The notes under the pieces: generated by a model
What the model was told of the DNA's origin: nothing
Seen by the model: only the letters and a program-made list of their open reading frames with translations
Database searches by the model: none
Source: Bacillota bacterium
GTDB taxonomy: Bacteria; Bacillota; Negativicutes; CTSoil-072
DNA length: 64,000 nt
NCBI GenBank assembly: GCA_017889545.1
Contig: JAGFZV010000008.1
Location: 134,874 to 198,873 of the forward strand
Reading direction: 5' to 3'
Shown: piece by piece, positions 15,552 through 36,288 of the stretch
Position numbering within the stretch: the first letter of the stretch is position 1
Layout: each line of letters begins with the position of its first letter
Position numbers and translations under genes: made by a program

Positions 15552-15563
15552 GAGGAAAAAGAA

Positions 15564-17453: not shown

Positions 17454-17455
17454 AT

Positions 17456-19087: not shown

Positions 19088-19091
19088 TAAC

Positions 19092-21104
19092 ATGGAAGAC
19101 ATTCTTCTGATAGAGCCAAATTACTCAAATAAATACCCCCCTTTAGGACTTATGAAAATCTCAACCTTTCATAAGCAACTAGGTGATTGCGTTGTTTTCG
19201 CAAAAGGAAAACTTACGGACAATCTGGTGGAGAAAAGGTGGGACAGGGTCTATGTTACGACGCTGTTTACTTTCGAGTGGGAGGAAACTAAGAAGAGCAT
19301 AGAGTATGCGCTAACTGTGGTCAAGGACAAAAACAAAGTCTTTGTAGGCGGCATTATGGCCACTCTAATGCCTGAACTGTTTATAAAAACATTCCCGACC
19401 ATTACTCTGATAAAAGGGTTGTTGAATCGGGATGGAACAGTGGGACTACGAGACGAGAAGTGCATTGACCGCTTAACCCCTGATTATGATATTCTTGATG
19501 ACATAGATTACAAGTATCCGGCAACCGACGCTTATTTTCTCTACATGACTCGTGGGTGCGGCATGAAATGCCAGTTTTGTGCTGTGCAAACTCTTGAGCC
19601 GGAGTATATTCCGTATATTTCAATAAAGGATCAAATTGCAGAAGTTGACAGACGGTTCGGGGCAAAGCGGAACCTTCTCCTCATGGATAACAATGTTCTG
19701 CGCTCAAATAAGTTTGACAGTATTGTCGATGAACTGATTGAATTAGGCTTCGGAAAGGATTGTACTTATCCGAGTCCTCGCACGGGTAAGCCTTTGAAGC
19801 GATATATTGACTTTAACCAAGGTCTTGACGCTAAGTTGCTCACAGAACATAAAGCAAAGCGTCTAGGAGAGCTTGCAATAAACCCTGCGCGAATAGCCTT
19901 TGATCATATAGAAGACAAGGAGCAATACAAAAAGGCTTTGGAACTGTGCGCCAAAAACGGAATTAAATATCTGTCTAACTACATCCTATATAACGGCGAG
20001 GATTTTACAGGCAAGGGGCAACACTACCATGCTGACACACCAGAAGACTTATATATCCGCATGAGGGTGTCTATGGACTTTTGTGACGAACTCAATGATA
20101 AATATGGACACAACGGGAGGGTTCACATATTTTCCTTTCCTATGAAATATATACCTTTGAACGCGACCGACAGGTCTTTTGTCGGCACTCATTGGAACAA
20201 AAAATACCTTCGTGCAGTGCAGAGGATGCTTATCCCCACGCAAGGTAAAGGTGTATCAACACGGTCGTTTTTTGAGGCTGATTTCGGCAACACTACTGAA
20301 GAGTTTATTGAGAACCTTGCCATGCCTGAAGAACTTCTTGGTTTGCGTGGACATTTCGTAGAGCGAGCCAATGAATCTAAAGAGGAAAAGAAAAAGCGTT
20401 ATGCCCAATGGGAAATCAACCACGCTCGAATTTTTGAATGGACCCAACTGTATCGCTCTTTAGGAGATGACTTTACAAGCTATGTGGAAATCATCAAGGA
20501 CAACGACTTCTCGATTCATAATTATAAGCGTATAACCTCACCCACCATTAGGAAGATGTTTATTCATAACTTGTCGTACCTAAGTATTTTGAGGAACATT
20601 GAAATGCTCGGCACAGAGATGCTTGCGTACATTAAGGTTGAGTTTCCAACGATGTACCGTGAATTGTTGCGGTATGTAATCAAATCCGAACATACGCAGT
20701 TTTCTTGCATGAAAGGAATGCTGACACTTCAGGGCAACGCTTATATAGCTGATGTTATAAGAGCCTTTATAGAGGAACCATATTTGACGACGAATGTCTT
20801 TGACGCTCTGTACAAAGCGCAAAAAGATTTGAAAAAGGTTGTTCTTGACACTCGAAGCCTTGATATCGCATTACGATACAGAATGGCAAACGCCATTTCT
20901 GATACTGAACTGAGAAATATCATGCGTTTGGGCATTGAGGGTGATGAGAAAAAGATTGAAACGCGGCTTTATCAGAAATCTAGGAAACTCAAGGATGTCT
21001 TGCGTGAAAAAAACAAAGATGAGATAGCAGGTGATGTTATTCTCGATAAAATCGAAGAGGTAATCGGTCTGCTCCAAAAGGTATACAGGAAGGAAGTAAA
21101 ATAA
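19092..21104 (+). CDS. Radical-SAM protein with B12-domain-like N-terminus
   Basis: The protein has 670 residues from the ATG at 19092; a longer frame reaching 18942 overlaps the helicase gene and is unlikely. The N-terminal 130 residues begin ILLIEPNYSNKYPPLGLMKI, the layout of cobalamin-binding-like domains in B12-type radical-SAM enzymes. The [4Fe-4S] motif CGMKCQFC lies at about 155-162. The C-terminal 300 residues are helical, charged and unrecognised. The gene is 4 nt after the helicase and 1 nt before the second Hsp90-like gene, so it is an integral operon member. Radical-SAM chemistry in a DrmA/DrmB operon is unusual. The substrate could be DNA, a nucleotide or a partner protein; the sequence does not tell. 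Confidence 0.78.
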   Translation: MEDILLIEPNYSNKYPPLGLMKISTFHKQLGDCVVFAKGKLTDNLVEKRWDRVYVTTLFTFEWEETKKSIEYALTVVKDKNKVFVGGIMATLMPELFIKTFPTITLIKGLLNRDGTVGLRDEKCIDRLTPDYDILDDIDYKYPATDAYFLYMTRGCGMKCQFCAVQTLEPEYIPYISIKDQIAEVDRRFGAKRNLLLMDNNVLRSNKFDSIVDELIELGFGKDCTYPSPRTGKPLKRYIDFNQGLDAKLLTEHKAKRLGELAINPARIAFDHIEDKEQYKKALELCAKNGIKYLSNYILYNGEDFTGKGQHYHADTPEDLYIRMRVSMDFCDELNDKYGHNGRVHIFSFPMKYIPLNATDRSFVGTHWNKKYLRAVQRMLIPTQGKGVSTRSFFEADFGNTTEEFIENLAMPEELLGLRGHFVERANESKEEKKKRYAQWEINHARIFEWTQLYRSLGDDFTSYVEIIKDNDFSIHNYKRITSPTIRKMFIHNLSYLSILRNIEMLGTEMLAYIKVEFPTMYRELLRYVIKSEHTQFSCMKGMLTLQGNAYIADVIRAFIEEPYLTTNVFDALYKAQKDLKKVVLDTRSLDIALRYRMANAISDTELRNIMRLGIEGDEKKIETRLYQKSRKLKDVLREKNKDEIAGDVILDKIEEVIGLLQKVYRKEVK

Positions 21105-21105
21105 G

Positions 21106-22578
21106 GTGGACATTACAATAGGAAAATTTACGCTCGAAACCCTTACATCAGGTATGTATGAGCGTCCCAAAGACATATACCGTGAATACATTCAGAACGC
21201 CGTTGATTCAATCGATATTGCCGTGTCTGAAAAGTTGGTGAAAGAAGATAAGGCTCAAATAGACATCGAAATAGATAAAGAAGGGCGTTGCATTAGGATA
21301 TCTGACAATGGAACCGGTATTGGCACGGAAAACGCCACTCGGTACTTGTTAGACATCGGACACTCCCCTAAACGGTTCACAAATGCACGAGGCTTTCGAG
21401 GCATCGGGCGTCTAGCTGGACTTGCTTATTGCAATACCCTTATTTTTGAGACCTCCGCCGCTGGCGAAGACAAACGGACAATCATTGAATTTGATGCAAA
21501 AACTCTATGTGAGCGTATGCTCAATGAACGAGTTGATATCGACTTGCTCTCACTTATTTCCGAGGTGGTTACTATTAAGGTTGAGCAAGAGGCACGGACA
21601 AAGCATTACTTCAATGTTGTTATGATTGGAGTCGAAAACACAGATGGAATTTTAGATTTGGATAAAGTTCAGCAATACCTTGAACAGGTTGCACCGGTCG
21701 ATTTTGAAAAGTCCTTTGGATGGGGCAAAATCATTAAGTCGAAACTGAAAGTTTTCGCTTTTGCGCCGTCAAGCTATAATATTTTTGTGAGCAGCGGTGA
21801 CCATCGTGTTCCCATAATGAAAGCCTATCAGGATACGGTAATTTCTGACCGCCTTAGAAAACTTGAAGATAATATTTCCGAGATAGAAACTAAAGAGTTC
21901 ATCTACGATGGGGAAAAAATTGCTTATCTTTGGTATGCAAAAACAAGTTTCTACGGTACACTTCAAGACGAAGCAATCAAAGGAATCCGCGTAAGGAAAG
22001 GCAACATTCTCATTGGAGACAAAACAACTTTGAATCATATTTTTAAGGACGAGCGGTTCAATGGTTGGCTGCTCGGAGAACTTCACCTTCTATCCTCTAG
22101 ACTGATACCCAATGCTCGAAGAGATGAGGTAGAGAAGAACGCGGCGTACTCTGCTATGATCGCCGATTTACGGGCTTGGGCTGAAGGAATTTCCTATGAG
22201 ATAAGGAAAACCTCAAACCAACGGAGTTCGGATAAAAAAGCCCAGAGAATCATTGAGTTTGCTCGGAACGAAATAATACAAGATATTGAAGCTACTACCA
22301 CAGTCGTTGTACCAGAGGTAACACTGCTTAACAAAGCCGAAATTGAGCAAGTGAACCATACAGAATTGGTAGCGGCTCTTGACATCATCATCGGCGCACA
22401 GCAGCCAAGCACGAAGTACAAGGCCCTTAATCTGCAATCGAACATTACTGTCGAGCAGAAGAAGGTCTTAGCGCGCGTCTTCGACATAATTTGTAGCGAT
22501 GAAACCCAGCAATCAAACGCTCTTATAAAGAGAATAATCTGCGAGTTTGTTCCGAAGTCTGTGGCTATTGCGCGGTAA
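21106..22578 (+). CDS. Hsp90/GHKL-type ATPase, second copy
   Basis: This 490-residue paralogue of the first operon gene has the same motifs at the same positions: N-box REYIQNAVDS (N31), DNGTGI (D67) and GFRGIGRLAGL. The start is a GTG one base after the radical-SAM stop, with GGAAG upstream. The C-terminal third diverges most from the first copy. Both catalytic regions look intact, so each could be an active ATPase. Placement of two paralogues at the two ends of one operon suggests a heteromer or two separate clients rather than redundancy. It is the last gene of the operon; decayed sequence follows. Confidence 0.85.
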   Translation: MDITIGKFTLETLTSGMYERPKDIYREYIQNAVDSIDIAVSEKLVKEDKAQIDIEIDKEGRCIRISDNGTGIGTENATRYLLDIGHSPKRFTNARGFRGIGRLAGLAYCNTLIFETSAAGEDKRTIIEFDAKTLCERMLNERVDIDLLSLISEVVTIKVEQEARTKHYFNVVMIGVENTDGILDLDKVQQYLEQVAPVDFEKSFGWGKIIKSKLKVFAFAPSSYNIFVSSGDHRVPIMKAYQDTVISDRLRKLEDNISEIETKEFIYDGEKIAYLWYAKTSFYGTLQDEAIKGIRVRKGNILIGDKTTLNHIFKDERFNGWLLGELHLLSSRLIPNARRDEVEKNAAYSAMIADLRAWAEGISYEIRKTSNQRSSDKKAQRIIEFARNEIIQDIEATTTVVVPEVTLLNKAEIEQVNHTELVAALDIIIGAQQPSTKYKALNLQSNITVEQKKVLARVFDIICSDETQQSNALIKRIICEFVPKSVAIAR

Positions 22579-22604
22579 ACATTAGTAAGTATGGAGGCAG
22601 AGAC

Positions 22605-22769
22605 ATGGGTAGCGTGCTGATGAAATCAATTATTGGCAGATTTGACAATAACTCATTCAAGACATTTTTTCAGAGGATGCTTGACCAATCAGATTTTTAT
22701 AACGGAAAAACAAAAAAGTTCTCAAATATTGATGATAGAATATTTGCACGTCCTGCGGAAAGATTTTAG
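22605..22769 (+). CDS. Small 54-residue hypothetical protein, possibly truncated
   Basis: A short frame starts at ATG 22605 with a GGAGG site upstream and ends at TAG 22767-22769. It encodes MGSVLMKSIIGRF... with no recognisable domain. It lies 26 nt after the second Hsp90-like gene and directly before gene debris, so it may be the intact start of a gene whose remainder has decayed. I cannot assign a function. Confidence 0.4.
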   Translation: MGSVLMKSIIGRFDNNSFKTFFQRMLDQSDFYNGKTKKFSNIDDRIFARPAERF

Positions 22770-22783
22770 CAAATTGCAGATAA

Positions 22784-23031
22784 ATTTTTTTATGTGCTAA
22801 TCACCTTACATATTGTGGGAACGTTGAAGTAGATCCGCTTCGTGCGAAAATTCAATTTAATGACTTGTTTGATGAAGTGTAAGCCATCTTAACATCAATC
22901 CGGCGATAAAAGTGAAGATTGCTATTGAAGTTAAAGCGGAAGCGGAAGTTGGCTTTAGCGATAGTTTGCAACGCACAATCAAAGAAAATTGCAAAGTTTT
23001 AAAATTTAAAACGGCAGAGTTTTATAAATAA
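22784..23031 (+). pseudogene. Remnants of one or two gene 3' ends
   Basis: Two short frames without starts are visible. One ends at 22882 and encodes ...VEVDPLRAKIQFNDLFDEV. The other runs from about 22888 to 23031 and encodes INPAIKVKIAIEVKAEAEVGFSDSLQ followed by RTIKENCKVLKFKTAEFYK. The second resembles the C-terminal tail of DUF499-type ATPases found in defence loci, which end in a similar 'vRTvkENcrtLkF' block. Neither has a start codon or body. They look like leftovers of genes deleted between the Hsp90 operon and the orphan genes. The DUF499 link is from memory of the family tail and is tentative. Confidence 0.55.
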
Positions 23032-23060
23032 ATATAATGGTGTCTGGAAGGGGGTAGAAA

Positions 23061-23495
23061 ATGAATTGTGATAATAGTGAGTGGATTAGTTTGCATATCA
23101 GAACGCGAGTTGGGAACAAAGACACCAATATGAGAGTGCTGGGGATCTTATTTGGTGGATATACGACAGATTGTGTTGCTGAAAAATTAATTGATATGTT
23201 GTTGTCAATGGAAACCGGGATGGTAGGTGGCTGGAAACGCGGCCATAATGGGACCGTTGCAGAAAAACTGTTTATATTGGCTCAGGAATATTACAAACAA
23301 AATGAAAAAGACAATGAAATAAGTACATATCAAATTTCACTTTCCAAAGCAAAATTTGATATGTTGGTTAGCATTTCCGAACGTATAAATAGTACCCCTG
23401 GCGAAATAGCCGGAGTGCTTATTGATTTAACAGCATACCTGATGAAACCCTTGCTAGAAACCAATGAAAATTCAACGTTCTATAAGGCCTTATGA
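23061..23495 (+). CDS. 144-residue hypothetical protein, possible RHH C-terminus
   Basis: This small protein has a GGGGG-type ribosome-binding sequence upstream of its ATG. The N-terminal half is not recognisable. The C-terminal 45 residues (YQISLSKAKFDMLVSISERI and following) have the strand-helix-helix rhythm of ribbon-helix-helix DNA-binding proteins, but the match is only by pattern. It stands alone on the plus strand between gene debris and another orphan gene. It could be a regulator or an antitoxin-like protein, but no partner toxin is evident. Confidence 0.5.
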   Translation: MNCDNSEWISLHIRTRVGNKDTNMRVLGILFGGYTTDCVAEKLIDMLLSMETGMVGGWKRGHNGTVAEKLFILAQEYYKQNEKDNEISTYQISLSKAKFDMLVSISERINSTPGEIAGVLIDLTAYLMKPLLETNENSTFYKAL

Positions 23496-23666
23496 TAAAA
23501 CTGGTTATTTAATTTTTTATGGTTGCTGTTCTCCATATTTTCAAACGGTTACCTTAATGAAACCATTCGTTCAGTAGTTTTGCTGATTTTCATCGCTGAA
23601 AATATATGACGTTATTTTGCTTAAATAGTTGAAGCTGCTTGCAGAATAACAAAATGGAGGTATGAA

Positions 23667-24212
23667 ATGCTTACTATTGTGCAAAATCCCCAAGATATAC
23701 AAAATTATTATGATTTATTTAAGCGAGTACTAATAAATAATGCCCAGGAAATAGTGCAAACTAATATTGGATACAAAGGAGATAGTTTCAAAACAGAAGC
23801 TTTTTGGTCAAGCGCATTAGGGATATGGATGGTGTTCGCAAGTGAATATAATCGATCTTGGAACGCTTTTGGATTAAATAGGCCATCAGAAACAGATTCC
23901 AACTCTATTACTTGCGAAATTAATTTCCCTTATTCGGGAATTAACCGTCGCATTGCGGGTGCCTTTGCTTTGGATGAGCGTGGGAAGACATTTGTTATTC
24001 ATAGAGGGAAAATTGGCGGTGGTCGAGTTGGTATTGGAAAAAATATGATGTTGCAGAATTATTCTGGCGATATTAGGAAAGTAAAAGATGGCAATAAACA
24101 GTCGGATGTTATAATAATCGGTTCCCTTCAAAGTGAAGATTTTAGCAGTCAATTAGCGCAATTTGTTTCGGATGTTCAGTGTTTAAAAGATAAGAGCCAA
24201 GGAAAGAGTTAG
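23667..24212 (+). CDS. 181-residue orphan protein, defence-type module
   Basis: The 181 residues begin at an ATG with GGAGGT upstream. A conserved-looking core reads FVIHRGKIGGGRVGIGK, followed by the DVIIIGSLQSEDFSSQLAQF block. I associate this pattern with N-terminal modules of some HNH-type restriction endonucleases, where it precedes the nuclease domain. Here no nuclease domain follows, so the gene is either a stand-alone module or a truncated one. The following 270 bp contain no continuation. Function is unassigned. Confidence 0.5.
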   Translation: MLTIVQNPQDIQNYYDLFKRVLINNAQEIVQTNIGYKGDSFKTEAFWSSALGIWMVFASEYNRSWNAFGLNRPSETDSNSITCEINFPYSGINRRIAGAFALDERGKTFVIHRGKIGGGRVGIGKNMMLQNYSGDIRKVKDGNKQSDVIIIGSLQSEDFSSQLAQFVSDVQCLKDKSQGKS

Positions 24213-24488
24213 CTAATTTTATCCGTTATATTGGTATTTTTCAACGAAATAATGATGATCAATGAAAGAAAAAAAGTTACTGCTTCAAGATAGGATATAA
24301 CAGGTTTTATTAGTATGCTATCGGTTGCAATGGATTCAATTGGCGCTTCGTCCATCATATTTATTCAGTCTTCAATGAAAAAATACAAACTCTTATAGGC
24401 ATATATAAAGAGATTTATGTATGTAATTATTAATATAAATACAGATACAAATAGATATGAACCGGACATAAAATTTATGTGATTATTG

Positions 24489-24527
24489 AGGAATAAGTTC
24501 TAAAATTGTCGGGACCTATTCCTTTTT
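24489..24527 (+). terminator. Terminator-like hairpin
   Basis: The stem AGGAATA (24489-24495) pairs with TATTCCT (24517-24523) and is followed by a T-rich run. It lies downstream of the 181-residue orphan gene. Confidence 0.55.
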
Positions 24528-24685
24528 GTTTTGATTATTATATCCTAATTGATATCAAATTGAGTGATTTAATTATAGATAAACAGACGAATTAATTAAC
24601 AATAAAAATGTAGATATATAATGTATAAAATAAATTTATTGTCATTTAGGCATTAATGATAATAAATTTATTTACAAAAATAATG

Positions 24686-24714
24686 TTGAAAAATAACGCC
24701 ATTTGTGATATTTT
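24686..24714 (+). promoter_or_regulatory. Promoter of the DUF4325-like regulator
   Basis: TTGAAA (24686-24691) and TATTTT (24709-24714) are separated by 17 bp, 35 bp before the chosen start codon. One copy of the AATGTTGA repeat overlaps the -35 box, so repression is possible. Confidence 0.6.
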
Positions 24715-24748
24715 AATATTAGACGAAAAAATGATAAGAAAGGGCAAT

Positions 24749-25402
24749 ATGGGTATGAATATAACCAAAGTAAAGGTAGCAGATATAGCAGCAGACTTGG
24801 GAGAAATCAGTACAATATTTGCTTTTCGGCCTAAAGGTGAGCAAATGAGAAGAAATTTAGAGCAGCGTGTAATGTCCAAATTGACGGACGATTGCGCAGT
24901 GGAGCTGGATTTTATAGGGATTAGAATGTGCGATGCGAGCTTTATCGATGAATTTGTTTTAAAGGCAATTGAGAACATTATTGAAATGAAAAAAGAAAAT
25001 ATGATATATGTGTGTAATGTTAATCAGGATATCATGGAATCCTTTCACATGGCAATTGTTTACCGAAGGCATCAAGGTCAACATTTGCCGGTAATGCAAA
25101 AAGAAGCCGAAAATCATTATTTGCCAGTAGGTCCATTAGAAAAATCTTTAAAAATAGGACTGGATGCTTTATTAGTGCATAACAAACTTAACGCTAAAAA
25201 TTTTTATGAGATTTTGAAAGGATCAGCTCCAGAAGTATCAGTTGCGAATGCCAATTTGATTTTAAAACGGTTATATGATTATCGGCTGATTTTGCGCACG
25301 AAAAAGAAAGATGAGAGAGGTAAATATTATGATTATTATTTGCCGTTATCATCACAAAATATTCAAGCGAGTAGGAAGCTGAGCTGTGTAAATTACAACT
25401 AA
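24749..25402 (+). CDS. STAS-like DUF4325 protein with winged-helix C-terminus
   Basis: The protein has 217 residues from the ATG at 24749, which follows an AGAAAGGG ribosome-binding sequence. An upstream ATG at 24656 lies within the promoter and is unlikely. The N-terminal part contains VELDFIGIRMCDASFIDEFVL, the pattern of STAS-like DUF4325 domains (hydrophobic strand, then a serine-phenylalanine-acidic turn). The C-terminal 80 residues (about 140-205) have helix-helix-strand character of a winged helix, including KNFYEILKGSAP and ILKRLYDYRLILR. A DNA-binding regulator is the likely role. It sits directly upstream of the transposition genes, and shared repeats lie in both promoter regions. 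Confidence 0.6.
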   Translation: MGMNITKVKVADIAADLGEISTIFAFRPKGEQMRRNLEQRVMSKLTDDCAVELDFIGIRMCDASFIDEFVLKAIENIIEMKKENMIYVCNVNQDIMESFHMAIVYRRHQGQHLPVMQKEAENHYLPVGPLEKSLKIGLDALLVHNKLNAKNFYEILKGSAPEVSVANANLILKRLYDYRLILRTKKKDERGKYYDYYLPLSSQNIQASRKLSCVNYN

Positions 25403-25418
25403 TAAGGATTTAATAAAA

Positions 25419-25467
25419 AAAGATCTTAACTCTGCAATGTAAAATGCAGAGTTAAGATCTTTTTTTA
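25419..25467 (+). terminator. Strong intrinsic terminator
   Basis: A long perfect stem (AAGATCTTAACTCTGCA and its complement, about 25422-25462) around a small loop is followed by TTTTTTT and preceded by AAAAAAA, so it can work in both directions. It separates the regulator gene from the transposition operon. Confidence 0.9.
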
Positions 25468-25543
25468 CGAAAAAAATGTTGACAAAAATAAAGTTGCATG
25501 GTAATTTATAAAATAAATATTACAAAAAAAATGTAGAAAAATT
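25464..25543. repeat. AATGTWGA repeat pair, possible operators
   Basis: Two copies of a pattern TTAC(A/G)AAAAAAATGTWGA occur at about 25464-25484 and 25519-25539. Similar copies lie at 24595-24620 and 24670-24694 before the regulator gene. A TATAAAATAAATTT-type block is also shared by both regions. The role as operators of the DUF4325-like regulator is inference. Confidence 0.45.
25475..25511 (+). promoter_or_regulatory. Promoter of the transposition operon
   Basis: TTGACA at 25478-25483 is followed 17 bp later by TAATTT and then TATAAAAT, upstream of the tniB-like gene. The -35 box is embedded in an AATGTTGACA repeat. Confidence 0.6.
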
Positions 25544-25611
25544 AAATAAGAGGTGAAAAGTATAGCGAACGATAATTTTAGCTGATTTAAATTGAAAGTA
25601 GGAGAAAGATA

Positions 25612-26550
25612 ATGAGTAAATTATATGCAACAGTCGAAGAACGTATGCAAAAAGTGGATCAATTATCCATTATTCATCCGAGAATGAAAAGGGTATTAGA
25701 AAAAATTGAATATTGTCATCAGATGTCAAAATTTTTATGCGAACCGCAATGTTTATTCATTAGTGGGCAAACCGGAGTTGGAAAAACGTTTATTCATCAC
25801 TATTATTCGCGACAATACCCTGCCAATATCAATGAACAAGGGGAACGAACTGTTTCAGTGGTCTCATGTCATGTTTCATTCCCAATTACGATTAAAAGCT
25901 TGATCGCAACAATCGGCACAAAACTAGACGATGAAAATTTTGCAAAAGGATCAATTTTCCAACAAACAAAACATTTAGAGAATATGGTAAAAGAACGAAA
26001 TGTTCAGTTGATCATCATTGATGACATGCGCGTCTATTCCGACCAGAAATTAATGAAAGATACTAAGAAAACTATGGAATGGTTGAATACCTTCATCGAT
26101 TCTACCCGTATCCCTTTTATACTAATTGGGTCGCCGTTTTTTATGAAAAGTTTAAAATATATACCTAAATTGGATCGGCGATTTGCTTTTCGGGAAACTT
26201 TGGATGCCTTTGAGTATAAGAGTCGAGCATCCCAAACTGAATTCAGAATGTTATTGAAGCATATTGGTCATCTTATGCCGTTTTCAGAGCCATCTGTAGT
26301 TGGCGATGAGGAAGTAGTAAGAGAAATTCATCATGTTACTCGAGGGGTGATTGGCAACATAATGCAAATAATTAGTCGTGCGTACTATCATGCTATCCAA
26401 AATAATAACGAAGCAATTAGCTCAGAGACCTTGGCAACTGCAATCAGGGAATTCAGTGAATTTGCACAACCACAAGAGAATTTGGTTCGTCAAAAAGATA
26501 TAGGGTTTCGTAGAAAAAAATCGCACACGAAAAATGAAAATTTGGAGTAA
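25612..26550 (+). CDS. TnsC/TniB-like ATPase, accessory copy
   Basis: This 312-residue AAA+ protein resembles TniB/TnsC. Walker A is GQTGVGKT (about 52-59). The Walker B segment reads LIIIDDMRV (about 133-140), whereas the second copy (30047-31069) has LIVLDEFQH. The catalytic glutamate is therefore an aspartate and the following family residues are lost. It is the first gene of the transposition operon with a GGAGAAAG site. An additional TnsC-like gene with a changed Walker B could act as a decoy, an immunity factor or an alternative targeting adaptor. It could also be a relic of an older tns operon, although the frame is intact. Confidence 0.75.
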   Translation: MSKLYATVEERMQKVDQLSIIHPRMKRVLEKIEYCHQMSKFLCEPQCLFISGQTGVGKTFIHHYYSRQYPANINEQGERTVSVVSCHVSFPITIKSLIATIGTKLDDENFAKGSIFQQTKHLENMVKERNVQLIIIDDMRVYSDQKLMKDTKKTMEWLNTFIDSTRIPFILIGSPFFMKSLKYIPKLDRRFAFRETLDAFEYKSRASQTEFRMLLKHIGHLMPFSEPSVVGDEEVVREIHHVTRGVIGNIMQIISRAYYHAIQNNNEAISSETLATAIREFSEFAQPQENLVRQKDIGFRRKKSHTKNENLE

Positions 26551-26676
26551 GCGCGGCCAATATTATAGGAAGCGTTTGAGAAAAGTCGCAAAAACATCGG
26601 GGCAATATATTGCGAGCTTTACGTAAATAGTAAAATAAACTGCACACAAATAAAAAATTAGAAGGGGACAATTTAT

Positions 26677-27249
26677 ATGAAGAAACGGCATGAAAAAATA
26701 AAAAGGGATGACGGATCAGTAAGACCTTCGGGTTTAGTTACGGTGGATTATGCCAAATTAGATTGTACCATCATTGATGAAAAAACTAATACGGTTTTCG
26801 GAAGGCCTTGGGTTACATTGGTGATAGATATTTTTTCCAAACATGTCACCGGTTATCATATTAGCTTTGAGCCACCTGACGCATTAACGCCATCGACTTG
26901 CCTTGATCAGCCATTATATTCTAAGTACCCAAATAATGAATGTGCAGACAGCGGTATGGAATGTCAAATAGAAGGTGCTACAGGAAATCATGTCATTATT
27001 GATAAAAGCGAAAGCTTGATGACTGATATTCAAGGAAACTGCATAAATGGAATTAGCGAGCGCCTTTTCAATCAAATCAACACAAAGCTACAACACCTGC
27101 TTTACGAAACATCTTTTGCAAATTTATGTGGAAACGATGAAGGCAGCGCGGAACATCATTTGTGCATTAGTTATGAAATGCTGGATTGTCTGCTGCGTAA
27201 AGCGAAATTCAGTGATTGTTTTAATTACATAGATGGAGGTAGGAATTGA
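26677..27249 (+). CDS. Shortened TnsB catalytic-core protein
   Basis: This 190-residue protein aligns with the catalytic core of the downstream TnsB: VDYAKLD against MDHTKMD, GRPWVTLVIDIFSK against GRPWLTLCIDVYSR, and ISERLFNQINTKL against VERFFGSINTQL. The DDE residues correspond to D24, D109 and E128. The spacing between the last two is 18 residues instead of 35, because a core strand of the fold is missing. The N-terminal DNA-binding domains and the C-terminal TnsC-interacting tail are absent. It is unlikely to cut DNA. It ends 1 nt before tnsA in a continuous operon with a GAAGGGG site, so it appears to be expressed. It may be a decoy or a degenerate relic. Confidence 0.75.
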   Translation: MKKRHEKIKRDDGSVRPSGLVTVDYAKLDCTIIDEKTNTVFGRPWVTLVIDIFSKHVTGYHISFEPPDALTPSTCLDQPLYSKYPNNECADSGMECQIEGATGNHVIIDKSESLMTDIQGNCINGISERLFNQINTKLQHLLYETSFANLCGNDEGSAEHHLCISYEMLDCLLRKAKFSDCFNYIDGGRN

Positions 27250-27250
27250 A

Positions 27251-27871
27251 ATGAAAAAACCGATTCGAAAAATAAAAAATTACAAAGGCCGAAATAGCAT
27301 TATCGGAAAGTTTGCCAGTGCTAAGATGAATAAGATAATTCATTGGGAATCCATGATTGAACGCGACTATATATTCTTGCTAGAAACAGATCCAGATGTA
27401 ACGTACTATGCTTCCCAGCCACTAAAGATGGAATATTGGAAGGATGGTAAGAAGCATTTCTATACCCCTGATTTTTTGGTAAAGCGTAATGGCATAACAC
27501 AAATTGTTGAAGTGAAGCCGAGCGCAAAAGTAGAAAAACACCGTGAGCTTTTTCAAGCTATAGCATTATATTGTGAGGATAAAGGATGGAAGTTCTTGGT
27601 GGTCACAGAGGCAATGGTACGGGTTCAGCCTCGGCTTGAAAATGCAAAGATTCTTTGCCGGTATTCGTTCGGCAATATTACGTTTGATTATATTGAAGAA
27701 TGCAAAAATTATTTAAAACAACACGGAGCGAAACCACTGCTGGAAGTAAAAGAACACATGAAAGCGAAAGGATATTGTCCTGCTATGATTTACACTTTGC
27801 TATATAAAGGTGCCATTGCTTTTGCGATCGATCAGCCAATCAATGACGATTGCAGACTCTGTTCCGAATGA
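27251..27871 (+). CDS. tnsA: Tn7-family transposase endonuclease TnsA
   Basis: This 206-residue protein has the TnsA nuclease pattern: E33 in HWESMIERD, D74 in YTPDFLV and E87-V-K89 in IVEVKP, the restriction-enzyme-like catalytic set. A C-terminal helical region follows. TnsA cuts the 5' strands at the transposon ends and acts with TnsB, so the element should move by cut-and-paste. The ATG at 27251 is chosen because GGAGGTAGG precedes it; an in-frame ATG at 27233 would place the ribosome-binding sequence inside the gene. It lies directly before tnsB. Confidence 0.92.
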   Translation: MKKPIRKIKNYKGRNSIIGKFASAKMNKIIHWESMIERDYIFLLETDPDVTYYASQPLKMEYWKDGKKHFYTPDFLVKRNGITQIVEVKPSAKVEKHRELFQAIALYCEDKGWKFLVVTEAMVRVQPRLENAKILCRYSFGNITFDYIEECKNYLKQHGAKPLLEVKEHMKAKGYCPAMIYTLLYKGAIAFAIDQPINDDCRLCSE

Positions 27872-27885
27872 GGATGGTTTAAAGC

Positions 27886-30024
27886 ATGGGAAAAACGTTC
27901 AGGATAGAAAAAGGCTTGAAATTTAGCTACAAAAACAGAATTTGGGAAGTTGATCAATTTATTGGGCCGGCAAATGTGCGAATCATCAATATTGCGAATG
28001 GCGAAACAGATATTAAGGAAAAAGAAGAATTGTTGAAAGCTTTAGTTCGCAAGGAACTGCAAATAATTATTGATATCAATGAAAGAAAAAAGAAAAATGG
28101 TGTTGATTTATCTAAATTCGATCTGGCGAAAGTGCCTACTGAACTGCAGAAAAATGTCTTAAAAAATTATGAATATATTAAAACAGTTCGTAAAAAAGGG
28201 CGTTTTCCGCTTGTTGTTGAAGCTTTTCAACAAATTGTTGCAGAAACAGCTCAAAGGATACAAGACGATAATCCTCCAAGCGCAATTACAGTGTATCGTT
28301 GGTGGACACAGTACAAAAAATCGGAAGATGTAAGGGTACTGATTGACAATAATTGGTATAAAGGAAATTTTGACAGCAGAATATCTGAAATCCAAGAGAA
28401 GATAGTAGATGCTGCCATACAAAACTATTATCTGACAGATCAAAGACCAACGATCAGAGCAGTTAAAGATTTAATAGACATACGAATATCAGAAGAAAAT
28501 AATGTTGAAGGAATTGATAAAATGCCTCCCATTTCATATAAGGCTGTATACAATCGTATCAAAAAACTTGATCCGTATGTAGTGGCGAAGTCCCGTTATA
28601 ACGAGAAATACGCAGAGCAAAAGTTCGGAGTTTCCGGTGGTGGACCTCGGCCAACGAGAATCTTACAGCGCGTTGAAATGGATCATACAAAAATGGATCT
28701 TTTCGTTATCTGTGAAAAAACAGGTATGGTGTACGGAAGACCTTGGTTAACTCTATGTATAGATGTTTATTCAAGGTGCATTTTGGGCTACTTTATTTCT
28801 TTCGAACCTCCCAGTGCGATGACGGCATTGGCTTGTTTGGAGCACGCAATCTGGCCTAAAAATATCAAGGAGAAATATTCGGACATTGTTAACGAGTGGT
28901 CGGCGGCAGGTATACCGGAAAATTTAATTTTCGACAATGGTAAAGAATTTATGGGTACCAATGTTGAAAACGCCTGTCTGTCTCTGGGAATCAATGTTGA
29001 TTATTGCCCGGTCCAGGAACCATGGTACAAGGGGTGCGTAGAACGGTTTTTTGGAAGCATTAATACTCAATTAATCCATTTGTTACCAGGAACTTCTTTT
29101 TCGAACATTTTTGAAAAAGGCGAATATGATTCTATAAAAAACGCAGTCATCACTCATGCAATGCTCGATTGGCTGGTAGCAAAGTGGATAGCAGATATTT
29201 ATCATCAACAGTTTCACACGGGCGCAAGAGCGGTTCCGGCATTGTTGTGGCAGAAAAGTGCAGAAAAATACGAGCCGAGATATGCTTCGAGTGCTGACAA
29301 ATTAAATGCGCTCTTGGGGTACTCGGGAGAGCGATCTGTAGGTAAAGCTGGAATACAATTGGAAAAGCTATATTATAGTTGCCCGGAAATTGCGCATTTG
29401 CGGACTATCAAGACTGAAACTGGTAAATTTGAAATTAAATATAATCCAAAAGATTTGGGCACAATTCAGGTTTTTGATCCTTCTAGATCCAAGTGGTTAA
29501 TGGTTCCGGCTGTCGATTTTTCATATGCAAACGGATTGACAGTTTGGCAGCACCGAGTCCATAGACGCTATGCTCTTCAGGAATACGGCAACGAGGACAG
29601 AGAAAGTCTTGTGAAAGCTAAAAAAGTAATTTTTGACGCTGTGGGGGATGCCAGTCAAAAGATTAATAAGACCGGAATTGGCCAGAAAATTGCAAGATAT
29701 TTGAAATTAGGAATTGATAATATAGTTTTTTCTGATGACGAGCAAATGACTAAAAATGTAAAGCAAGAAAAAAACAAGAAAGATAAATGCGAGATGAAAG
29801 ATATGATACAGGCAACGTCTAATCATCCCTTGCACGGCGTATCGGACGTAGGGATAGCGGTGAGCGCCACTCCTCCTTTTGTAGATGAAACTAAAAACCT
29901 TGTAAATCACAAAGATTCTCCTAAAGAGAATAACCATATGCAAGAGGTTGCAGAAAACGAACAAATGGAAGACGATTTCGAAATGGAAGAAGGATTTATT
30001 ACGACCAATGAGTTAGCATGCTAA
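27886..30024 (+). CDS. tnsB: Tn7-family DDE transposase TnsB
   Basis: This 712-residue transposase has N-terminal helix-turn-helix domains (about 1-250) that should bind the 18-bp end repeats. A retroviral-integrase-type core follows with D266 (EMDHTKMD), D350 (IFDNGKEF) and E386 (GCVERFFG), a D-D-35-E spacing. The beta-barrel region follows. The C-terminal 100 residues are charged and end in an acidic tail (EDDFEMEEGF), a feature used by TnsB proteins to contact TnsC. All catalytic residues are present, so the enzyme looks active. It lies between tnsA and tnsC. Confidence 0.95.
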   Translation: MGKTFRIEKGLKFSYKNRIWEVDQFIGPANVRIINIANGETDIKEKEELLKALVRKELQIIIDINERKKKNGVDLSKFDLAKVPTELQKNVLKNYEYIKTVRKKGRFPLVVEAFQQIVAETAQRIQDDNPPSAITVYRWWTQYKKSEDVRVLIDNNWYKGNFDSRISEIQEKIVDAAIQNYYLTDQRPTIRAVKDLIDIRISEENNVEGIDKMPPISYKAVYNRIKKLDPYVVAKSRYNEKYAEQKFGVSGGGPRPTRILQRVEMDHTKMDLFVICEKTGMVYGRPWLTLCIDVYSRCILGYFISFEPPSAMTALACLEHAIWPKNIKEKYSDIVNEWSAAGIPENLIFDNGKEFMGTNVENACLSLGINVDYCPVQEPWYKGCVERFFGSINTQLIHLLPGTSFSNIFEKGEYDSIKNAVITHAMLDWLVAKWIADIYHQQFHTGARAVPALLWQKSAEKYEPRYASSADKLNALLGYSGERSVGKAGIQLEKLYYSCPEIAHLRTIKTETGKFEIKYNPKDLGTIQVFDPSRSKWLMVPAVDFSYANGLTVWQHRVHRRYALQEYGNEDRESLVKAKKVIFDAVGDASQKINKTGIGQKIARYLKLGIDNIVFSDDEQMTKNVKQEKNKKDKCEMKDMIQATSNHPLHGVSDVGIAVSATPPFVDETKNLVNHKDSPKENNHMQEVAENEQMEDDFEMEEGFITTNELAC

Positions 30025-30046
30025 CCAAGAAAGGAAAGTTTGACAG

Positions 30047-31069
30047 ATGAATGAAAAATGGAAAGAAGCGAGCACCGAGGGAAAATATCAACATTTGAAA
30101 AGTCTTCACTGTTATTATCCTAGATTGAAAGTGCTAATCGGTAAATTGGAAAGTTGCCATAACCAGCCTAAATGGAAGAAAGATCCGGAATGCCTCTTTA
30201 TTAAAGGTATCGCTGGAGTAGGAAAATCTACTTTAATTCGCATCTACGCATCACGGCATCCGAGAAGACAAACAGAAGAAGGTATGATTATTCCGGTGCT
30301 AACTGCAAGTGCTCCTGTTCCCGCTACAATAAGGGGGTTGGCATCCCGTATTTTGAAAGAAATGGGCGATCCTGCATATGATATTGGTACGACAAATAAA
30401 TTATCTGCCCGGTTGCATTACCTGATCAAGGAATGCGGTGTCGAATTGATAGTTTTAGACGAATTTCAACACTTCCTGGACAGTGAGTCATATAAACCTT
30501 CTTTAAATGCAGCAAACTGGATAAAAGAATTGATTAACGAGACTGGAATACCCGTGGTATTAATTGGAATGCCTTCGTCGGAATGCATTTTCTACAGCCG
30601 CGACCAACATCAACTGAGCCGTAGATTTAAATCGAGGACCAGTTTAGACCCTTTTTCTTGGGATAACCCGTCGACAATAAAAGAATTTAGGAGTTTTTTG
30701 AAGATGTTGAATGACGAATTGCCCCTTCCAGAAAGTTCTTATTTGCATAGTACGGATACAGCGTTTCGCATATTTTATTCAACAGACGGAATTCTTGATC
30801 ATATAATGACCTTGGTTAAATCAGCTTGTGGATTGGCCATTGAACGGTCGCTTCTCCAGATTAATCATGACCTGTTAGCAGAGTCATTCTCTGAGCACAT
30901 TAAGCCAGTATTGGGATGGAAGAAAAATCCCTTTCGTGATTCTGTAGCAAACCTAAAAGAAATTGATGTGGATTATCAACCAGTTTTACCCCCTAATGCT
31001 CCCAAGAGTGCGTCAAAAGAAAAAAACAAAAAAAACAATAATGTTAAGACTCTGCTATCTGCACAATAA
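30047..31069 (+). CDS. tnsC: Tn7-family transposition regulator TnsC
   Basis: This 340-residue TniB-family AAA+ ATPase has Walker A GIAGVGKS (about 54-61) and Walker B LIVLDEFQH (about 134-142), both intact. It links the target-site protein TniQ/TnsD to the TnsAB transposase and mediates target immunity. A lysine- and asparagine-rich C-terminus may be the partner-contact tail. An AGGAAAG site precedes the ATG, and the stop is 13 nt before tniQ. Compared with the accessory copy at 25612, this one has the standard catalytic residues and is the likely working TnsC. Confidence 0.93.
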   Translation: MNEKWKEASTEGKYQHLKSLHCYYPRLKVLIGKLESCHNQPKWKKDPECLFIKGIAGVGKSTLIRIYASRHPRRQTEEGMIIPVLTASAPVPATIRGLASRILKEMGDPAYDIGTTNKLSARLHYLIKECGVELIVLDEFQHFLDSESYKPSLNAANWIKELINETGIPVVLIGMPSSECIFYSRDQHQLSRRFKSRTSLDPFSWDNPSTIKEFRSFLKMLNDELPLPESSYLHSTDTAFRIFYSTDGILDHIMTLVKSACGLAIERSLLQINHDLLAESFSEHIKPVLGWKKNPFRDSVANLKEIDVDYQPVLPPNAPKSASKEKNKKNNNVKTLLSAQ

Positions 31070-31082
31070 CAAGGAGTACAAC

Positions 31083-33026
31083 ATGGTATTATTGAGAATT
31101 TGTCAGCCGTTTGAGGATGAAGATTTTTGGGATTACGTAAAACGATTGGCAGAAATAAATTATTATGAACGACCTTCCATGATTACAGAAATAGCACAAA
31201 TGCACAAATATAAGTCCTTTTCGAATATGGTATTTTCCAATGACATAGAAATCGTTAAAATAAGTGAGTTGAGCGGAGTTTCGGAGGAAAAACTCCGTGC
31301 TCTCCTTTATCCAGAAATTGAGGGGAATAAACAATACAATCTGTTTAGCGGGATGCCGGTTCAAAGATTTTCGCTAAAGAATTCGCCATCAAAAGTCTGT
31401 CCCCAATGCCTTAAAGAGCATGGGTGCAGCAGACAAATATGGAATATCACAGCCTACACAGGATGCGCTGTGCATCATGTCCGTATGATTGATACTTGTC
31501 CATCTTGCGGCAACGGGTTGTCTTGCTTGAGGCCCAAAACCTGTGAATGCCGGTGTGGATTTGACTTGACAACAATCGAAGGAGCAACCCTTTCTTTGGC
31601 TGAAATAGATGTTTGTACCCACATTTATGATCTCGTATATCAGAATCATAGAGAAGGTGGCTGTTTAAACCATCTTAAATTAGGTAGTTATCTTAAATTA
31701 TTGGATTTTATGGCAGCGCAAATCGCTGGAGTTTGTGTTACAAGCGGTAATTTTCTTTCTACTAAAACGTTGGAACAGGGGCATGAATTTGTTGTTCAAG
31801 CACATCAAATATTTACTAATTGGCCAAATAACTTTTACAAATTCTTGTTAGAACTCAAGGGAAGAAATTTTGAAGGATCAAGATATAAGCGCGCTACTGG
31901 ATTAGTCAAAGATTTTGGGGCATTTTATATCCCGTTGTATGAACATTTTCAGAGTGCAGAATTTGATTTTTTACGTGACGCCTTTGAAGAAAACCTAACG
32001 CATTGGGATGGCGGTTATATTAAAGAAAGTAACTTAGCTTTTTCGAAGAAATTGCAAGAGAAAATCAAATTTATTGGTATAAACGAAGCTGCTGCTAAAC
32101 TAAAAATGGCACCAAAACGAGTCAAAAGGCTTCTTGAAACAGGCTATTTACAGGGAAATGAAATACCAATAGAAAACACAACCATATTTAGGATAGATAA
32201 GAGCAGTGTAAAGGAACTGAAAGACATATTAGAAACAGCAATATCTCCCCGACAAGTTTCCAAAAGTTTGAAAATAAGTTGCAATGTTGTCTTGGAACTT
32301 TTGCGAAGAGACTTGTTGGAGCCCTATATGGGTAAGACCGTATTAGATGATGATTTCAAATGGCTTATATTGCCTGGAACGGTAGACGATTTTTTTAATA
32401 AAATACGGAGCCAAATCAAATCTCCGACTAATATGCACAAAAAATTTATAGATATAAAGGAAGCAATTCACAAACTTAAACCAGTTAAATATGGTTATCC
32501 TGACTTAATTGCAGCTATTTTTGCTGGTGATATTAGTCCATGCGCAGAATCTGAGGAGCAAGGACTGGAGCGCTTTTGGTTTTTAGAGGAAGACATACGG
32601 AATTTTATTGATGCAAAATATGCCGCAATCAAAAATGATAGCTTTTCATTGGAAGAAGCTGCAGCAGAAATGCGTGTCAAAATAAAAACTCTTAGATTGT
32701 GGGCCAATAAAGGATTATTGGATGCGGTTCAGCCACATACTACAGGGTATTCTTGGTGGACAATTTACCGTTGGAACATTGATGAGTTTAAAGAAAAATA
32801 TGTATTGGGAGCACCAATTGCACGATCGTGTGGAATGTCTCCAGGAAAATTGGTTAAAACTCTAGCACAAATGGAAATTTATCCCGTTTCAGGAAACACA
32901 GTTGATGGAGGATTACAATATTTATTCCGCAAAAGTGATTTGGAACAGGCTGGGTACGATACCTCTGTTTCATGGGGTGCAGACGGTAAGTATCGTTCAT
33001 GGGATAAAGACACTTGCGCAAGTTAA
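31083..33026 (+). CDS. tniQ: TniQ/TnsD-like target-site selector
   Basis: The protein has 647 residues from ATG 31083 with AAGGAG upstream. The N-terminal TniQ domain includes zinc-ribbon cysteines CPQC (about 106), CAVHH, CPSCG and CECRCG. The C-terminal 350 residues contain several helix-turn-helix-like blocks, for example INEAAAKLKMAPKRVKRLL (about 336), ISPRQVSKSLKIS (about 394) and LEEAAAEMRVKIKTLRLW (about 521). A long DNA-reading C-terminus is typical of TnsD, which recognises one chromosomal site. Since the element sits 6 nt behind dnaB, this protein most likely binds the 3' end of dnaB. The target is inferred from the insertion position alone. Confidence 0.9.
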   Translation: MVLLRICQPFEDEDFWDYVKRLAEINYYERPSMITEIAQMHKYKSFSNMVFSNDIEIVKISELSGVSEEKLRALLYPEIEGNKQYNLFSGMPVQRFSLKNSPSKVCPQCLKEHGCSRQIWNITAYTGCAVHHVRMIDTCPSCGNGLSCLRPKTCECRCGFDLTTIEGATLSLAEIDVCTHIYDLVYQNHREGGCLNHLKLGSYLKLLDFMAAQIAGVCVTSGNFLSTKTLEQGHEFVVQAHQIFTNWPNNFYKFLLELKGRNFEGSRYKRATGLVKDFGAFYIPLYEHFQSAEFDFLRDAFEENLTHWDGGYIKESNLAFSKKLQEKIKFIGINEAAAKLKMAPKRVKRLLETGYLQGNEIPIENTTIFRIDKSSVKELKDILETAISPRQVSKSLKISCNVVLELLRRDLLEPYMGKTVLDDDFKWLILPGTVDDFFNKIRSQIKSPTNMHKKFIDIKEAIHKLKPVKYGYPDLIAAIFAGDISPCAESEEQGLERFWFLEEDIRNFIDAKYAAIKNDSFSLEEAAAEMRVKIKTLRLWANKGLLDAVQPHTTGYSWWTIYRWNIDEFKEKYVLGAPIARSCGMSPGKLVKTLAQMEIYPVSGNTVDGGLQYLFRKSDLEQAGYDTSVSWGADGKYRSWDKDTCAS

Positions 33027-33236
33027 TATCTGTTGCAATAGAGCTATTAAGATTCTACTTAAATTATTAAAAAGAATAACCTCAAAGGTTTAAATGCGGA
33101 GTGTGTGATGAATCAGTAGTTTGATAAGCGGATAATTTGCGCCTTCCGAATTGCAGACACAGTGTGTGTTTGTACTAATAATGAGATTTTACAATTAGAA
33201 AGTATCTGCATTCATTAAAAAATAAATGAAATTTTA

Positions 33237-33277
33237 GAATTAGGAGTCATCCTTAAAAGGTGACTCCTAATTCTTTT
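33237..33277 (+). terminator. Intrinsic terminator after tniQ
   Basis: A perfect 13-bp stem (GAATTAGGAGTCA with TGACTCCTAATTC), extended by CC/GG-type pairs in the loop, is followed by TTTT. It ends the transposition operon. Confidence 0.88.
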
Positions 33278-33534
33278 ATGGGTTTAAACCATCAGCATAT
33301 CCATATTAAAGTTAAGTAAGTAACCATTATTAAAAATCCAGAAATTGATTGGCAGGAATTTTATGGAGATGTTATAATTAAAAAATAGTAGAAAATATGT
33401 AAAATATTACATAAAGATATTTTATCGTATAAACTGCTGCATCTTTTATATGATTTCAGATAGATCTATTTTAATGAAAGGTATGTAGGAAATTTGGGGA
33501 AAATGCATATCTTAACCAAGTTTTCTTTTGTACT

Positions 33535-33566
33535 CTTATCAACATTATTGATAAGGTTATTATACT
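33535..33566 (+). promoter_or_regulatory. Palindrome and -10 element before dGTPase gene
   Basis: CTTATCAA (33535-33542) and TTGATAAG (33548-33555) form an 8-5-8 palindrome immediately before TATTATACT. The arrangement suggests an operator overlapping the core promoter of the dGTPase-nucleotidyltransferase pair. Confidence 0.5.
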
Positions 33567-33596
33567 GGGGGAACTTATAAAATGGAGGAGATAGAA

Positions 33597-35066
33597 ATGA
33601 GTGAATGGGATAAATTATTATCACAAAAGCGGTTCCGTGCTGCTAGTAAGAGGAGTAGTTTTGATAAGAGAAATGAGTTTGAAAATGATTACTCGAGAGT
33701 TGTTTTTAGCTCTTCTTTCAGAAGACTACAAGATAAGGCGCAAGTTTTTCCGCTTGAGAACTCAGATTTTATTAGAACAAGGCTAACACATTCTCAGGAA
33801 GTGTCTACTCTTGGGAGATCGATTGGAATTACTGTTGAAAATAAGTTAGTTGAGGATGGAATAGCTCCAGAGCTAAGTAAGAACCATAGGGGTGAAATAA
33901 GCTCTATTCTCGCAACTGCTGGATTAATACATGATATGGGGAATCCGCCCTTCGGTCATTTCGGTGAAACTGCTATCCAAAAATTTTTCCAAAATTGGTT
34001 TACCAAAGATTCTATCGGAAAAGAATTTAAGCTGAGGAACCCCAATCACGCGGCTGATTTTGAGAACTTTGACGGTAATGTCCAAACGTTTCGATTACTG
34101 CGGAAACTACAATATTTAAAGGACATGAATAGCCTCAATCTGGCGTTTGCAACTCTTGCATCTGTTATAAAATATCCTAGGTGTTCAATTGAGGGGAATA
34201 AAAAGGACAAGGGATTAAGTTATAAAAAATTCGGTTATTTTCAGAGTGAGGCAAAGGATTTTCAGGAACTAAAAGAAGAGCTTCAGATAGGAAATAGTAG
34301 GCATCCGCTAGCCTTTTTATTAGAGGCAGCAGACGACATCGCATATTCAATCGCGGATATAGAAGACGGCTGTAAAAAGGGGGTCCTTACCTATGAAATA
34401 ATAAGTAAAACGTTAAGAAATAAACTTAAAATGGAAATACCTGACGAGAAAGCATTATTTGAACAATTTATACAACATTACAAAGAGACGGTCGATGAGA
34501 ACTTTCCAAATAGAATTGAATTAGTTGTTCAAAACTTTCGGATTGATGCACAGGGACACATGATTACTGCAGTTATAGAAGCCTTTGTATCAAACTTAGA
34601 TGACATAAAGTCGGGAAAGTTTGATGAAGATTTAATTTTGGCATCAAAGGCTAAAAATCTTAGAGAGGCATTTAAAGAATTAGCAGGGATTCTTTTTGCG
34701 AATAAAGAAGTAATTGAAAGAGAACTCGTCGGAGAAAAAGTGATTTGTGGGTTGTTAAGCTCTTTTGTGGAAGCTGTAACATCTCCGGATAGATATGACC
34801 CGAAATCAAAAAACGGCAAAGTGTTTAATTTGATATCTGATAATTATAGATATATAATGAAAAATAACCCTTATTCTTTACAGATAAATGATCCAGAACT
34901 TATACAGATTGAAAAAATAGATAAGTTAAGCGGTAAAAAATTAGAGATGGCTCAAAATGCTCCCAGTTTATATGATCACTTATTATTAGTAACAGATTTT
35001 GTTTGTGGAATGACAGATTCTTATGCTTTAGAACTATATCAAAAGTTAAGCGGTATTAAGCTATAA
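33597..35066 (+). CDS. dGTPase-family HD-domain triphosphohydrolase
   Basis: This 489-residue protein is a deoxyguanosinetriphosphate triphosphohydrolase-like enzyme. It opens with the family N-terminus FENDYSRVVFSSSFRRLQDKAQVFPLE. It shows the HD metal motif in RTRLTHSQEV, LIHDMGNPPFGHFGE and a later ADDIAYSIADIEDG. These enzymes cleave dNTPs to nucleosides and triphosphate. Several act in anti-phage defence by depleting dNTPs, which suits carriage on a transposon. The ATG at 33597 is preceded by GGAGGAG. The next gene, a nucleotidyltransferase, begins 14 nt after its stop, so the two form a unit. Confidence 0.88.
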   Translation: MSEWDKLLSQKRFRAASKRSSFDKRNEFENDYSRVVFSSSFRRLQDKAQVFPLENSDFIRTRLTHSQEVSTLGRSIGITVENKLVEDGIAPELSKNHRGEISSILATAGLIHDMGNPPFGHFGETAIQKFFQNWFTKDSIGKEFKLRNPNHAADFENFDGNVQTFRLLRKLQYLKDMNSLNLAFATLASVIKYPRCSIEGNKKDKGLSYKKFGYFQSEAKDFQELKEELQIGNSRHPLAFLLEAADDIAYSIADIEDGCKKGVLTYEIISKTLRNKLKMEIPDEKALFEQFIQHYKETVDENFPNRIELVVQNFRIDAQGHMITAVIEAFVSNLDDIKSGKFDEDLILASKAKNLREAFKELAGILFANKEVIERELVGEKVICGLLSSFVEAVTSPDRYDPKSKNGKVFNLISDNYRYIMKNNPYSLQINDPELIQIEKIDKLSGKKLEMAQNAPSLYDHLLLVTDFVCGMTDSYALELYQKLSGIKL

Positions 35067-35080
35067 GTGAGGTGAACAAA

Positions 35081-35788: not shown

Positions 35789-35809
35789 AAAAAATGAGAT
35801 TTAGATACG

Positions 35810-35847
35810 AGGCATCTACTAGTATACAGATGCCTATTCTTTTTTTA
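35810..35847 (+). terminator. Intrinsic terminator after nucleotidyltransferase gene
   Basis: AGGCATCT (35810-35817) pairs with AGATGCCT (35828-35835), followed by ATTCTTTTTTT. Confidence 0.8.
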
Positions 35848-36155
35848 TACGTCTTAGTTACTGCATCCTGATAATATTTCTTGCTATTATTTCAAAAAAT
35901 ATGTAACAGTAAAACTACATTAATTATTAGATAGAAGTACGGAACGCTACATGATAGGGGGAAATCAACAATGTTGATTATTTCTTCGCAAAGTGAAACC
36001 GCATTTTTTGTAAATAAAACTAAAATAGAATTATTATCTATTAGTAAAACGTTAAAAAAGTAATAAGGACAGATGGTTTTAAGGCTTCTTAGACTATCTT
36101 GGTGTAACAAAACATTGATAAATCGGCAAATAATAATTTTGGAGTAGGTATTTTA
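35848..36155. other. Non-coding stretch before right transposon end
   Basis: About 300 bp of AT-rich sequence. The only candidate is a 30-codon frame at 35970-36062 with a weak GGGGG sequence upstream. I do not regard it as a supported gene. Confidence 0.4.
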
Positions 36156-36288
36156 ATTTCATTTTATGGGGAAAAACTACTGGAAAATTTCAACTTATGG
36201 GGAAATTTTGTTTCACTTTATGGGGAAAAAGTCTTCACGAAGCCAGTAATTGTGGGATGGGTAATTTCACTTTATGGGGAAAATAACA
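36156..36288. repeat. Right transposon end with TnsB-type binding sites
   Basis: Four inverted copies of the same 18-bp site occur at 36156-36173, 36187-36204, 36210-36227 and 36264-36281. The outermost, ATTTCACTTTATGGGGAA, is the exact reverse complement of the second left-end site. The end finishes in AAATAACA. The arrangement matches a Tn7-family end with multiple TnsB sites. Confidence 0.92.

Follow-up and report, generated by a model that had tools for sequence, protein, structure and literature searches.

Tn7-like loci harbouring an additional and distinct tnsC near tnsB are a feature recorded in one large survey (ring, Fig. 2 legend, PMC10293859), from which it follows that a second TnsC as such is already known. 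Like the element described here, the loci of that figure possess a further tnsC next to the functional one; unlike here, neither degenerate motifs nor a truncated TnsB partner are described for them in the passages searched. Regarding the AAA+ regulators of this class, IstB mutants deficient in ATPase still support activity, to differing extents, a result that its authors called consistent with MuB and TnsC (PMC11208146). As for partial transposases lowering activity, the inhibitor protein of Tn5/IS50 comes from the transposase gene itself and its synthesis is abolished by the transposase mutation M56A (PMC3347997).

The cyanobacterial and Bacillaceae TnsABC-TniQ elements, namely those of Nostoc N6, Allocoleopsis and Niallia plasmids, are the closest to the working machinery of the present element, and no accessory TnsC-TnsB pair lies upstream of tnsA in any of them. 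Their proteins are the nearest relatives found, with identities to the working ones of 40-44% for TnsA, 29-34% for TnsB and 39-42% for TnsC. Besides, a Nostoc HK-01 plasmid carries a divergent integrase/ATPase module back to back with tnsABC-tniQ (L003:860-4722 and L003:5180-9818), which indicates that two transposition modules can sit side by side; the tnsB of this plasmid appears split into two annotated frames.

Here, we consider a 64,000-nucleotide stretch of the genome of a Bacillota bacterium (contig JAGFZV010000008.1, positions 134,874 to 198,873; hereafter the window, the numbering of which is used throughout), in which the tns operon of a Tn7-like element opens with a TnsC-like gene and a TnsB-like fragment, designated accC and accB. 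Such a degenerate TnsC-TnsB pair found no description in the searchable literature. All that is proposed below for accC and accB is drawn from one copy of the pair, at the level of the sequence.

A complete Tn7-like element adjacent to dnaB

The element is complete and spans 29,477 bp (6812..36288), both of its termini starting with TGTTATTTTCCCC and a target duplication, TCTTT, being present on both sides (6807-6811 and 36289-36293). The 18-bp end site, i.e. TTTCCCCATAAAGTGAAA and close variants, occurs at both ends, with three TnsB-type sites in the left-end array on the + strand (6818..6879; TTTCCCCATAAAGTGAAA / ..AAGTTGAAA) and four in the right-end array on the - strand (36157..36282); the end-array sequence of the element is TTTCCCCATAARKTGAAA. 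With TnsB-type arrays at both ends, a 5-bp duplication, tnsA, tnsB, tnsC and tniQ/tnsD recognised by ordered Pfam matches and a cargo of the defence type, the whole element is filed as Tn7-like. It is in single copy, the genome yielding neither a second end-site array nor a second full TnsB, and the viral contigs searched with the end site gave five matches, each to a single site.

The element stands directly 3' of dnaB (5444-6805; DnaB_C, E 6e-117), and the TCTTT duplication begins one base beyond the dnaB stop codon (window 5444-6811). The main texts of two surveys make no mention of dnaB as a Tn7-type attachment site (PMC8649781, PMC10293859). The target selector for this dnaB-adjacent site is likely the large TniQ (31083-33026), the only TniQ-type selector that Pfam recognised in the element.

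Regarding the cargo, the region 7489-22578 resembles a DISARM-related defence locus, with homologues of DrmA (E 2e-162) and DrmB (E 4e-53), UvrD-like and NERD helicases and a radical SAM protein, and with two similar-looking HATPase proteins, one at each end (7489-9021 and 21106-22578). Near the right end of the element, a dGTPase-like gene (PADLOC E 3e-70) and a nucleotidyltransferase-like gene (33582-35788) form a possible second defence cassette.

Organization of the tns operon

On the + strand, the operon runs in the order accC-accB-tnsA-tnsB-tnsC-tniQ. That the pair leads the transposition operon, as a previous sequence-only reading had it, is confirmed by the position of accC and accB, which precede tnsA, share its strand and follow a strong terminator-like hairpin (25409..25472; 28-nt arms, 93% complementary) parting the operon from the cargo gene ahead of it. 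Directly before this terminator, the region 24656-25402 encodes a 248-aa protein with no Pfam match, in which a STAS-like domain and a winged helix can be made out by eye and which is a possible regulator. A possible promoter on the + strand (25479..25507; TTGACA, 17 nt, TAATTT with a preceding TGg as extended -10) was likewise read by eye and is absent from the list of the promoter scan.

The working genes, all on the + strand, are tnsA (27251..27871; 206 aa from the likely start), tnsB (27886..30024; 712 aa, DD35E spacing), tnsC (30047..31069; 340 aa, LDEFQHF Walker B and NPF motif) and the tniQ/tnsD-like target selector (31083..33026; 647 aa, HTH_17/MerR domain by Pfam). The accessory pair has the order C then B and the working genes B then C, a reversal that sets the pair apart from a straightforward tandem duplication of the operon. 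An origin of the pair as a nested element was also considered and rejected, no end-type repeats being present near it.

Both accessory frames are open, with plausible ribosome-binding sites (TAGGAGAAAGATAATG; AGAAGGGGACAATTTATATG), just as had been read from the letters. At the accB-tnsA junction (27236..27253, + strand), GGAGG lies in the last accB codons and is followed by the stop TGA, one base and the tnsA ATG, a layout typical of translational coupling, which this spacing suggests. Of note, the start of accB matches that of tnsA weakly, at 77% over 35 A-rich nucleotides.

accC, a TnsC homologue with altered motifs

accC (25612..26550, + strand) encodes a TnsC/TniB-like AAA+ protein of 312 aa, whose resemblance to the TnsC of the element (29% identity over 287 residues, E 1e-44) is far above chance and which matches TniB in Pfam (PF05621, 7.7e-16). 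Two features of the TnsC family are kept, namely the Walker A motif GQTGVGKT (25765..25788, + strand), which is intact, and the arginine motif (RR, LDRRF). The Walker B motif is altered, in agreement with the earlier reading, with LIIIDDMRVY in accC vs. LIVLDEFQHF in TnsC: Asp137-Asp138 (26020..26025, + strand) stand where 11/12 working homologues have Asp-Glu and 1/12 has Asn-Glu, the catalytic Glu opposite residue 138 being found in 12/12 of them. In the type I-F TnsC of Photobacterium toruni (L010:8759-9760), the Walker B Asp is replaced by Asn and the Glu is kept. Near the C terminus, the NPF motif conserved in the aligned working TnsCs reads N-L-V in accC, and 7/20 near-invariant residues are lost.

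The AlphaFold model of accC, based on an alignment of two sequences, is of moderate confidence (pLDDT 67) and predicts an AAA+ fold, with the TnsC of V. cholerae as best PDB match (E 2e-12). Like the type I-F3 TnsC of V. cholerae Tn6677 (PDB 7ufi/7rzy), with which it shares 22% sequence identity over 285 columns, accC combines a predicted AAA+ fold, a Walker A and an RR motif; unlike Tn6677 TnsC and the TniB family, it has an Asp-Asp Walker B, lacks NPF and is a second TnsC in one operon. In the TnsC tree, it sits on a long branch, with a placement relative to TnsC supported at 56/0 only. By its motifs, accC is classed as a TnsC homologue that departs from its group in two features. The loss of catalysis previously attributed to both proteins applies to accB, as detailed below, and may at most be presumed for accC, in which neither Walker A nor the RR motif is damaged; besides, since ATPase-deficient IstB mutants retain activity, the sign of an accC effect is not certain.

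accB, a fragment of the TnsB core

accB (26677..27249, + strand; 190 aa) resembles the TnsB of the element far above chance (34% identity over 193 residues, E 2e-32) and aligns only to its residues ~241 to 434. The first ~240 residues of TnsB are lacking, as is everything past ~434 including Mu-transpos_C, which bears out the assertion that accB has no DNA-binding domains and no C-terminal tail; neither the N-terminal DNA-binding domains nor the Mu-transpos_C domain expected of a TnsB are present. The absent parts are those binding the transposon ends and TnsC, and the search for remnants of them beside accB gave none convincing.

Within the core, the catalytic triad is broken. Of the catalytic residues, D24 (first Asp) and E128 (Glu) persist, without the residues that normally surround them (D-H-T; DNG.EF). 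A deletion of 17 residues between the second Asp and the Glu had been put forward; the deletion is indeed there, its size is 16 in the alignments made here (LGINVDYCPVQEPWYK), and the second Asp itself is not kept, as Ile108 aligns with the second Asp of TnsB (FDNG) and Asp109 with the next Asn (26998..27003, + strand). The figure of 17 arose because Asp109 was taken as the second Asp and the count ran from Asp109 to Glu128. The deletion falls between Asn124 and Gly125; this point and Glu128, which is retained, occupy 27046..27060 (+ strand), and the spacing from Asp109 to Glu128 is 18 residues, not the 35 of DD35E. In total, 12/21 near-invariant residues are lost.

Compared with known transposases, residues 21-80 of accB correspond to the initial portion of the catalytic core of Tn6677 TnsB (9y7b, E 2.6e-7); unlike the TnsBs of E. 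coli Tn7 (7pik) and Tn6677 (9y7b), accB is devoid of DNA-binding and C-terminal domains or tail, its second Asp is displaced and 16 core residues are gone. AlphaFold gave no confident model (pLDDT 34, from a two-sequence alignment without control fold, the shallow alignment possibly contributing). The tree places accB beside the TnsB of the element itself (91/91, not starred), the accB branch having a length of 2.46 vs. 0.33 for TnsB, a 7-fold difference. By its alignment, accB is a TnsB fragment and not a transposase.

Constraint on the two genes

Constraint was assessed by asking whether accC and accB agree with their working counterparts preferentially at those positions that the family conserves, pairwise dN/dS having been discarded as a measure of selection because synonymous sites are saturated (pS ~0.77 for both pairs). 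Identity between accC and TnsC falls by conservation quartile from 0.49 through 0.26 and 0.21 to 0.13 (rho -0.28, p 5e-7), which places accC at the weak edge of the range of working TnsC relatives (rho -0.29 to -0.45). The corresponding values between accB and TnsB are 0.41, 0.36, 0.36 and 0.28 (rho -0.11, p 0.14, not significant), whereas all 14 TnsB controls compared with the same working TnsB show rho of -0.31 to -0.54, and the lack of pattern in accB is robust to a second alignment method and trimmed ends (rho -0.06 to -0.07). As judged from these patterns, accC keeps TnsC-type constraint and accB has lost TnsB-type constraint.

The predicted AAA+ fold and the family-type constraint of accC would both suit a second working TnsC-like adaptor, serving another targeting route or a host factor and hydrolysing slowly by design, accB being then irrelevant. 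The variation of Walker B, Asn-Glu in one type I-F homologue, and the mapping of additional distinct tnsC genes near tnsB in Tn7-like loci, in the Fig. 2 legend of the survey (PMC10293859), point in the same direction. Against it, only one TniQ-type selector was recognised in the element and both the NPF motif and the invariant Glu are lost; we regard this explanation as very unlikely.

The sequence-only reading had taken a joint loss of catalysis to suggest a decoy or regulatory pair. In this view, both proteins would be kept because they act in a dominant-negative or regulatory manner, poisoning TnsC oligomers as well as TnsB assembly, as truncated transposases do in other elements. The intact ATP-binding motif and altered Walker B of accC, the first place in the operon, the ribosome-binding sites and the long-retained open frames are all in its favour. 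The Tn5/IS50 inhibitor shares with accB the idea of a partial transposase lowering activity (PMC3347997); unlike this inhibitor, accB is a separate and diverged gene and any contact with TnsB is putative. The absence from accB of end-binding domains, C-terminal part, TnsB-type constraint and confident fold speaks against a decoy pair, as does the ability of ATPase-deficient AAA+ regulators of this class to support transposition (PMC11208146); as such regulators stay active without ATPase, the Walker B change alone makes no decoy. With accC constrained, and accB unconstrained and deprived of its end-binding and C-terminal parts, joint catalytic loss does not support a decoy function for the two genes as a pair, a scenario that we consider distinctly unlikely. 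Taken separately, the decoy idea is possible for accC and unlikely for accB.

Decay and the distribution of the pair

Depending on the alignment, the accessory and working copies share 27-37% identity. At the observed divergence, simulated free decay introduces about 5-7 stops into an accB-sized frame and 10-13 into an accC-sized one. With 44-53% of residues kept, a simulated accB-sized frame stays open with a probability of about 0.001-0.004 under substitutions alone, and this probability for a 190-codon frame drops to about 1e-5 or lower once indels are added at a rate assumed to be modest. Even when 65% of residues are retained, 0.02-0.05% of runs leave a 312-codon frame open. Free decay would thus very probably break both frames, which argues that, for the greater part of their history, they were shielded from it. 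The earlier statement that the pair does not reflect random decay is upheld in part, in the sense of "not throughout", both frames being open against the stops expected under free decay. The near-invariant losses of accB imply ~0.3-0.4 neutral substitutions per site, the level to which the above probabilities for a 190-codon frame apply. Inactivation of either frame in the recent past may be compatible with the simulation.

Such a recent inactivation is at the core of another explanation, which sees in accC and accB the remains of a second transposition module, or else of this one duplicated and rearranged, with frames that are not yet broken. It accounts for an accB cut at both ends, carrying an internal deletion and having lost transposase constraint, as well as for the key residues missing from both accC and accB, and adjacent transposition modules do exist, e.g. 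the divergent integrase/ATPase module that neighbours tnsABC in Nostoc HK-01 (plasmid L003). Besides, the pair is shared with no relative found: it was found neither in 12 related loci, of plasmid or viral origin, that were read together with their flanks, nor in 381 class and 399 phylum genomes (overlapping sets), searched whole with accC as query and with a six-member TnsC profile, and the other searches, namely pattern-plus-tblastn of genome and viral contigs and tblastn of plasmids, returned distant homologues only, without another instance of the pair. Since the searches did not turn up a close relative of the whole element any more than one of the pair, this absence of the pair neither proves nor refutes a relic. 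The improbability of an open accB frame under neutral loss and the family-type constraint still present in accC both weigh against relics, and we regard this origin as somewhat unlikely.

A proposed role for accC and accB

The explanation that we favour, tentatively, is that of a maintained and possibly regulatory TnsC paralogue followed by an eroded TnsB fragment held open by its coupling to tnsA. accC would be a diverged TnsC paralogue, maintained at least until recently as an ATP-binding AAA+ protein. As the first product of the tns operon, it would most likely join or compete with TnsC oligomers on DNA; it has what ATP binding requires and would probably oligomerise, with a likely poor hydrolysis, and the lack of NPF would result in poor signal transfer to the transposase, transposition being thereby tuned or damped. 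accB would be an eroded and catalytically dead piece of a duplicated TnsB native to the lineage of this element, its frame probably being kept open by translation just upstream of tnsA through the SD-stop-start overlap, where ribosomes ending accB would help start tnsA. Counted against this favoured reading, accC may be a recent pseudogene, the invariant Glu and NPF being both lost. The more specific proposal that accC, with or without accB, constitutes a co-transcribed dedicated brake, i.e. a hydrolysis-poor paralogue within TnsC oligomers setting how often this defence-carrying element moves, is unlikely.

If accC does restrain transposition, a Tn7-like element limiting itself via an inactive paralogue of TnsC, its ATPase, would represent an unusual mode of control, and control of this kind would offer a handle for tuning transposon-based tools. 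If the pair is instead a leftover, it would provide a record of how duplicated transposition modules erode and would suggest that constraint can fade faster in one member of a duplicated AAA+/transposase couple than in the other.
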